Source: Sphaerolaimus hirsutus
Lineage: Eukaryota > Nematoda > Chromadorea > Monhysterida > Sphaerolaimidae
Assembly (NCBI GenBank): GCA_964036195.1
Contig: OZ038455.1
Coordinates: forward strand, 14,153,855 to 14,217,854
Length of the DNA stretch: 64,000 nt
Direction of reading: 5' to 3'
The notes below the pieces were generated by a model. It saw only the letters and a program-made list of their open reading frames with translations, searched no databases and was not told the DNA's origin. Positions within the stretch are counted from its first letter, which is position 1, and every line of letters starts with the position of its first letter. The position numbers and the translations under genes were made by a program. Below are positions 36,201-39,200 of this stretch, piece after piece.

Positions 36201-39200
36201 TGTAGAGTATCGTGTTTGCCGAGTATAATTGAAAACCTGCGTGCTTACCAGTTTGGCTGAAATAGAAAACTGAAAGTTCAGCCAGAATATGGAAAATGAG
36301 GTGGAAAAAACAGAAAATTGAGCCAGAAAACGGAAAAAGACATAAAAGCTGAAAGCTGGAAAACAGAACATAAGCTGGAAAAATAGGAACAGAAAAAAAT
36401 TAGCAGCCATAAAACGGAAATTGAAAAAATTGCCAGCGAAAAGCAGAAACGGAAAACAGAAAACGGAAAATTGACAACCCAGCACAGAGCGTTTACATGC
36501 GCTGAGGCACACCGCCAATGACCATGCCCAAACAAACCATTTTTGCGCAAACCAATTCGTTCACAGGTCCTCTGCCGCAGTCGGCCGCAGGTGGAGAAGA
36601 GACCAGCTACATAGTGACCATCAAAGGTGTGGGCAAGTTTGTCGTGGACAAGGACCAGCTCGTGTTGGAAGAGGACTTGCAGCACAGCACCAGGGTCGCG
36701 TGCGTTTTTACGAACCGCAGTTTTGCTTTCAGGAGAAATGTGCCATTTGACAGCCTGTCACCCCGTCAAGTTGATATATCGCGCGTCGTGGTAATTTTAA
36801 CAAAAAGCAATCCCTATCAAAACACTCCTTATGAAATTTTCTGATGATGCAATTTACCCCCGCCAGAGTATTTCGTCGAGAGTTTTTTAAACAAATTTAC
36901 TATTAAAAGTATTACCAATTATCACTTTTTGTCACTTCTCCGCTTGCGGAATTTGGCCTGTTAGCTTCACCACTTGTGATCAACAGAGGTCAAAATAGAT
37001 AGATGACGCGTCCATTCACAGATGCCAGTATGCAGGGCCGTCTGGTAACTGCAAGATAATGTTGCCGCTGCCACCTAGAATCGACCCATCTGTCTCACTC
37101 ATGCAGGTAGTAAATACCGTATTTACTCGAATAATTCCCCACTCTTGAATAATCCTCCCTTGAATGTTGCCCCCTGTTGGATGAGTGAGAAAACATGATA
37201 CCCCCTCGAATAAGTCCCCGCTTTAGGCAAATGATAAATTTGCTGGGTATAATTTGAACAAAAATGGCATTTTATGTTCTGAATAAAGCATATGTCATGA
37301 AATGAGTTTATAGAAACACGCTTGAAAATTTTGAGGAAATAATAATTCCCCTTGCATAATTTTCTCCTCAAAAAGTCCGACAAAAAATAATTCCCCTGGG
37401 GGATTATTCGAGTAAATACAATAATTTATATAACGTATTAGGTATACCATATTTGGCACAGTGCCACAAGATGTAAATTTGATACGAATGCAGGTAGAGG
37501 AAAAGCCAGACGTGACGTACGAGCAGGTGGGCGGTTGCTCCAAGCAGATCGACAAGCTCAGGGAGGTCGTCGAGATGCCCCTCTTGCAGGTTTTTCGCAT
37601 ATAATTTGTTCTATTTATTTGTTCATCAAAAATACGCGCATTACTTTTCAGCCGCAGAAGTACATAAATTTGGGCGTGGAGCCGCCGAAGGGTGTGCTGC
37701 TCTATGGGCCGCCGGGCACTGGCAAAACTTTATGCGCCAGGTGCCAAACCCCGACCACGTAAAATGCCCTGTGTGGTGTCAAATGTCATGGAAAGTGTCA
37801 AATATCATGTAAAATGCCCTGCAAAAGGGACAGTCGGTGTCGGTTGCCGTTTTGCAGGGCAGTTTACATGGGTTTATACACTTTGCATGACATTTGACAA
37901 TTTACAGGACAATTTACAGGGTCTTGGACTGCCCCCAGGGCCGTGGCAAATAGGACAGAAGCTACATTTATCAGAGTTATAGCATCCGAACTGGTGCACA
38001 AGTATGTGGGCGAGGTGCGCTGAGTCCCAATAGCCTATCAAGAATAAAATATACTAAAAATGCAGATAGAATATAAATAAATTTTGATTCAATTTATTCT
38101 CAACAAATAAATATAATTCAATGCCCAATGTCCAGTTGAGTGACAACGTTCAAACGATGTTTAGAATGTCCTAGCATGTGACTGGGAGATATTCAAATAG
38201 TTTTAGGTTGACTTGAGTTGTAGTTTCAAAATGTAAACTTTTTACCTACTGAGTATTAAAAATTGACTGCACCTCAAAAGTACAAGTACATGTGACTCAA
38301 TCATCTATGCATCCATTTCCTCGCACCCACAGGGCGCGCGTCTGGTGCGCGAGGTGTTCGAACTGGCGCGCAGCAAGCGCTCGTGCATAGTGTTCGTGGA
38401 CGAAATCGACGCGGTGGGCGGAGCCAGGGGCGGCGACACCGACGGCGCCGAGAACGAGATTCAGAGGACCATGCTCGAGTTGATCTGCCAGCTGGACGGC
38501 TTCGATCCAAGGGGCAATGTTAAGGGGAGTCTGCATGTGTGGGCGGTAAAGTGCACTGTAAAGTGCTGTGTGAAATATGAAGTGTCCATGCGAAATGCGA
38601 AATTTTACTTTGCTTTACTGAGTATTTGCCGTTTTTCATGACATTTCATGTGACTCTTTTTACTTGTCAATTTCTCAATTTTGGGATTTTTCGCAGAATA
38701 AATCGTGTTTGTATATTTGCAATTTGCGCTAAAATTGTGCCAAAAAACGAGCGAATCACCGATAAAAAATTTATGTTGTTGATTTTTCATCTCATTTCAA
38801 TATCAGATTTTTTAAATTACTCAAAAATGAAGCCTCGCCATAAACAATTTTCATCTGGTTGCCACAGGTGATAATGGCTACTAATCGGCCCGACACATTG
38901 GACCCGGCGCTGGTGCGGCCGGGCAGACTGGACAGGAAGGTCGAGTTCAAGTTGCCAGACGAACAGGTTGGCCATTGGTTTCTTTTGCATTCTGCTCGCA
39001 ATGCACCTGGGTCAGGGGACAGTCCCGCACCCTGTTAAGTGTATTGTAAACTGTAAAATGTCAAGTAAAATGCCATGCAATTGGCGGGCTCAGGGACGCG
39101 AGGCGATTTTCAAGATCCACGCGACGAGGATGTCCTGCGACCGGGAGATTCGATTCGGCCTGCTCGCTCGCCTCTGTCCAAACTGCACCGGTACTTTCAC

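Follow-up and report, generated by a model that had tools for sequence, protein, structure and literature searches.

A palindromic MITE family as a probable source of introns, with one copy in Rpt1 and candidate TG acceptors

One intron of the proteasome gene Rpt1 in the window analyzed here (the whole stretch of 64 kb of Sphaerolaimus hirsutus) is very probably a non-autonomous DNA transposon (MITE) acting as an introner; it most likely belongs to NuwaI, a group of the PIF/Harbinger-like (PHIS) elements. The introner interpretation of this element, referred to as copy A, had been made in the original prediction and is supported at the level of sequence, because copy A is coextensive with the intron, brings the GT donor and takes the AG acceptor from a duplicated CAG, and because its family lies mostly in exon-like DNA, with some members in frame in conserved domains. 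The near-complete palindrome, the CWG target, the copies with a would-be TG acceptor and an Rpt1 intron with a GG donor are additions of this analysis.

Copy A and its relatives in the window

Copy A is a palindromic MITE of 195 bp (37741..37935, + strand) that starts GTGCCA and lies between two copies of its target site. The left CAG (37738..37740, +) forms the 3′ terminal three bases of the Rpt1 exon that contains Walker A (37652..37740, +), while the right CAG (37936..37938, +) furnishes the AG acceptor ahead of the following exon (37939..38014, +). The reading frame implies a GT-AG intron of 198 bp (37741..37938, +), and it is by this frame that element and spliceosomal intron coincide. 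Joining the exons without 37741–37938 gives GKTLCA^RAVANRT (^ marks a junction here and below), and the joined Rpt1 aligns with human 26S subunit 7 over 217/217 residues with 0 gaps (E = 1.2e-113). What had been predicted for this locus is thereby borne out, namely an element of 195 bp with its own GT donor between duplicated CAGs, use of the second CAG as the AG acceptor, and restoration on excision of the conserved sequence past Walker A. A protein search with Rpt1 recovered, among the best 120 of 7999 matches, Rpt1 from numerous animals and fungi, with identities of ≤80%.

As DNA, copy A folds at −59.2 kcal/mol, versus −25.5 ± 3.3 kcal/mol for 200 shuffles (z = −10.3). Its identity to the family consensus is only 84–85%, which makes it, judged by this divergence, an old member of the family. 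The suggestion that a transposon had been caught creating an intron holds insofar as the element is the intron and belongs to a large family, but is too strong for an old copy.

It had also been expected that at least eight other copies would be present in the first 44 kb. By nhmmer, with a copy counted as clear when one or both of its ends reached E < 1e-8, seven are clear and about three others are just weak matches. Two copies on the − strand are flanked by CAG/CAG on that strand and have an open frame across the joined flanks, copy B (6445..6630) with no Pfam match and copy C (9084..9263) with no Pfam match above the cut-off; the fold of copy B has a z of −21.4 versus shuffles, and copy C starts GG, not GT. 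On the + strand, copy D (17713..17942) is flanked by CAG/CAG and lies directly 5′ of alpha-SNAP coding sequence, copy F (7961..8156) is CTG/CAG, and copy G (283..427) is degraded. Copy E (43471..43827, −; 357 bp) lies within GPCR coding sequence, where the gene strand reads CTG^GTGTCA...CTGCCCC^CTG, or GT-TG. A half copy (39016..39077, +) is found close to the 3′ boundary of Rpt1 intron 38967–39093 and a weak family match (38554..38669; E = 3.4e-4 on + and 0.87 on −) inside Rpt1 intron 38525–38867, with weaker matches at 7354–7476 and 1738–1767.

Other features of the window include a reverse transcriptase fragment (PF00078, just under the cut-off) at 29534–30211 (−). At 54498–63224, DNA polymerase B (PF03175) and dUTPase (PF00692) lie close to each other and to an ATPase-like ORF that has no Pfam match, a cluster that resembles a Maverick/Polinton-type element. 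The frame of Rpt1 demands GG-AG ends for intron 38525–38867 (GTTAAG^GGGAGT...CCACAG^GTG), and the GG ends of this intron and of copy C recall the GG donors of a copepod. The GA and GG donors of Eurytemora affinis (PMC5714493) resemble the present case in recent intron gains and non-GT donors, given the GG-AG intron inferred in the window, and differ in that no transposon origin is given there and that donors here are mostly GT.

Consensus, target site and superfamily

The assembly searched (348 Mb in 762 contigs) includes the window. In a genome search with the element, 40 of 1994 candidates were scored and the 39 outside the window were retrieved; the consensus was built from 40 sequences including copy A, two near-duplicates among them. 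It is 189 bp long and, set against its reverse complement, matches at 176/181 positions; the arms differ only at a single inner site, in the loop and at the tips, which are GTGC at the donor end and CCCC at the other (GGGG read from that end). The consensus RNA with short flanks is predicted to form a hairpin of −168.9 kcal/mol. Two near-duplicate loci, L106 and L107, represent a symmetric variant with a GTGCC-type sequence at both ends (the 3′ end reads TGGCAC).

That the family is dispersed, as originally predicted, was confirmed genome-wide: in the 348-Mb genome, CWG precedes an exact 5′ end 586 times and follows an exact 3′ end 444 times, and reversed-pattern controls returned 0 for the 5′ ends and 0 for the 3′ ends. 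Because copies that are ~7% diverged mostly escape exact patterns, the family probably totals some thousands. The elements are short, have terminal inverted repeats, duplicate their target and exist in many copies, which are the features of a MITE.

The target is CWG, mostly within a palindromic CCWGG: in 38 copies (near-duplicates L029 and L047 dropped), C stands at −4 in 25/38 and G follows CWG in 25/38. Duplication of CWG is what defines NuwaI transposons; their TIRs usually begin with GGG, and the survey that reports them found them in animals only (PMC4482050). The present family, with TIRs that are GGGGCAGTCCCAGACCCTG-like, shares with NuwaI the CWG duplication, a GGG start of the TIR at one end (the 3′ end, GGGG) and an animal host; it differs in that the 5′ end is GTGC, not GGG. 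Because of the CWG target and the GGGG end, it is provisionally placed, by sequence, in the NuwaI group of PHIS (PIF/Harbinger, ISL2EU, Spy). The GGGG end would be ancestral and GTGC an altered end that supplies the GT donor. The portion of the NuwaI account drawn on here (PMC4482050) makes no mention of elements as introns, and a full-text literature search, at the level of its hit lists, gave no prior link of introners to the PIF/Harbinger superfamily in an animal.

As a probable MITE introner, the family of copy A belongs to an already known kind. The introners of Gozashti et al. 2022 (PMC9860276), including those of copepods, are likewise repeated TIR elements with short target duplications that constitute introns, with one splice site from the element and the other recruited from the duplication; the present family differs in that the entire element is one palindrome and in its CWG target. 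The main text of that paper contains neither 'Harbinger' nor 'superfamil'. The hairpin introner elements of Amoebophrya (PMC7789003) share an inverted-repeat hairpin joining the exon borders, direct repeats of 3–5 nt and non-canonical ends, and their hairpin has been proposed to bring the exon ends together. Amoebophrya is, however, a dinoflagellate, and its elements are described there as highly varied in their ends and as lacking inverted repeats specific to a family, whereas the elements here form one animal family with mostly GT-AG ends.

Copies in exon-like DNA and coding domains

A location-blind sample was drawn from contig C1 and consisted of 61 of the first 62 places in its listing (place 47, locus L022, was already in the set). 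Near-duplicates (L029, L047, L060, L061, L063, L082, L101 and L107) were removed before the identity and flank-class counts of the combined set described below and before the flank-GC counts, and two C1 copies in which the 3′ end was not found (L070 and L105) were excluded from class counts. Flank GC, only a proxy for exons, exceeded 0.5 in 74% of the 53 C1 copies that remained once both ends were required and near-duplicates set aside; in the window, the figure was 10% for random positions and 34% for CCWGG sites.

Among 29 distinct sense junction ORFs, which were chosen by eye prior to the Pfam search, a Pfam domain spans the junction in 11 (E < 1e-3) and 18 have no such match; 0/10 antisense junction ORFs had any match at E up to 0.1. 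With Rpt1, 12 junctions at unrelated gene positions are supported by homology, so that many similar copies occur as putative introns in the manner of introners. At 7/12 of these junctions the element lies in sense between CTG/CTG: a nicotinic receptor (L012), Patched/SSD (L034), OSCP1 (L054), the CBS of AMPK gamma (L058), an E1 dehydrogenase (BCKDHA, L069), a calpain (L074) and the GPCR of copy E. The remaining domains spanning a junction are those of a bicarbonate transporter (L013), ZIP (L019, below Pfam's cut-off), LRR (L050) and a cullin (L095). When aligned to PDB entries, Rpt1, AMPK gamma, BCKDHA and the nicotinic receptor show no gap where the exons join. Two copies 2.3 kb apart (L073 and L074) both lie in calpain-like coding sequence, one of them CAG/CAG and the other CTG/CTG.

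Two further approaches gave no support for coding flanks. A control that shifted the frame of the junction-spanning ORFs was powerless, since in GC-rich exons every frame stays open, and a codon model missed even known frames (3/15 concordant in the last round) and was dropped.

Could copy A merely lie within an older Rpt1 intron with which it has no common origin? Other Rpt1 introns do hold fragments of the family whose extent differs from that of the intron, and some copies in the window do not have coding sequence on both sides, but the two borders of copy A are the two splice sites and the same coextension recurs in unrelated genes, leaving this explanation very improbable.

Flank pairs and candidate TG acceptors

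The flank pairs of the 59 C1 copies with both ends found, near-duplicates included, are CAG/CAG in 32, CTG/CTG in 12, CTG/CAG in 6, CAG/CTG in 0 and others in 9. By hand count, CAG follows 63 and CTG 37 of the 100 exact 3′ ends listed first, and CAG precedes 57 and CTG 43 of the 100 exact 5′ ends listed first. Two different origins of the flanking CAG were considered and rejected. Nearly all flank pairs are CAG/CAG, CTG/CTG or CTG/CAG (CAG/CTG only at L108 and L112), which speaks against a CAG that belongs to the inverted repeat of the element itself, and the CTG/CTG copies contradict elements that bring their own 3′ CAG without target duplication.

Where an element in sense between CTG/CTG is removed exactly, the intron runs from GT to TG. 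From the frame, sense orientation and conservation of such copies, we infer GT-TG splicing. In the combined set, in which the C1 sample and the best BLAST hits are mixed, the right flank is CAG in 11/28 left-CTG copies, versus a T-to-A rate of 1.4% at T positions within the element (p = 8e-14), and is CTG in 0/59 left-CAG copies (one place, L015, is the second copy in L067 and is counted twice). The excess of CTG/CAG over the T-to-A rate fits selection for an AG acceptor. The direction from CTG to CAG is not absolute, because L108 and L112 are CAG/CTG; they represent 2/5 copies picked for a CTG acceptor, one locus (L111) of six examined having no recognisable 5′ end. L112 adjoins a GTATGT that resembles a native donor. 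The two copies of locus L067 are ~1.3 kb apart, and one adjoins a cadherin-like match below the cut-off.

The CTG/CTG copies may instead not be spliced as GT-TG and represent young, harmful or pseudogene insertions in one haplotype, an explanation that is unlikely but carries appreciable weight. Some copies with a CTG acceptor (L027, L068, L092 and L113) are indeed without a long open frame across the junction. Against this stand the seven in-frame sense cases inside conserved domains, a median identity to the consensus of 92.6 for CTG/CTG versus 93.1 for CAG/CAG copies (p = 0.57 in the C1 subset), and GC-rich flanks in 9/12 versus 24/30. Because their divergence and exonic flanks match those of the CAG/CAG copies, the CTG/CTG copies look old and tolerated, not like fresh damage. 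Splicing of these copies at shifted canonical GT-AG (or GC-AG) sites, with a few residues lost, added or replaced, is rather improbable. Introners of Aureococcus are reported to add codons (PMC9860276), and in-frame canonical alternatives occur within the searched range in 6/7 of the TG cases, but these vary by case and each alters residues, and OSCP1 (L054) is without one in range. The ACAG of the TIR, 19 nt upstream of the TG in the consensus, would break the frame if paired with the terminal GT, and it is the exact join that is gap-free against solved relatives in AMPK gamma, BCKDHA and the nicotinic receptor.

In human U2 introns, TG acceptors are found only with an AG within 28 nt, always as an alternative to AG and never as the sole site (PMC2374985); the copies here resemble them in a candidate TG acceptor with a nearby AG and differ in that TG would be the protein-preserving site. 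In Fritillaria tunicates (PMC13326754), an animal U2 spliceosome likewise removes introns with non-AG 3′ ends, for which introner transposons are one possible source. There, in contrast, 3′AT and 3′AC prevail, and TG is not named in the part of that account used here.

For copy A and its family as introners, the following course of events is proposed. A transposase supplied in trans would insert the element at C-CWG-G and duplicate CWG, both the target and the duplication being visible in the copies. As the sequence shows, the GTGC tip provides the GT donor and the CCCC tip a short pyrimidine run, and the duplicated CAG provides both the last exon bases before the donor and, in its second copy, the AG acceptor. 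An insert in sense would be excised by the spliceosome and leave the protein unchanged, consistent with the frame at the 12 junctions supported by homology, and the predicted RNA hairpin may juxtapose both splice sites and the exon ends. A CTG target would yield a TG acceptor that is presumably used. Perhaps the ACAG of the TIR marks the 3′ end for step I and the TG is joined in step II; U2AF may bind TTTTACAG in the TIR, with the TG 19 nt downstream in the consensus. A later T-to-A change would turn the acceptor into CAG, as the CTG/CAG copies suggest.

A broader reading is offered as a real but tentative possibility, in which one palindromic family of NuwaI-type MITEs filled the genes of this animal with introns. 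Hits on CTG would have left TG as the sole 3′ splice site that preserves the protein, the spliceosome would accept a sole TG, perhaps through a hairpin holding the exon ends, and selection would be converting TG to AG stepwise, with the steps visible in one genome.

The origin of new introns is a long-standing question. Across hundreds of copies, this transposon family displays the target, the duplication, the supply of splice sites and an apparent later correction of the acceptor, and it directs attention to an already named animal transposon group. Should the TG acceptors be used alone, nature would have run a many-times replicated experiment that breaks the 3′ AG rule of U2 introns, and the role of RNA hairpins in splicing would become testable.
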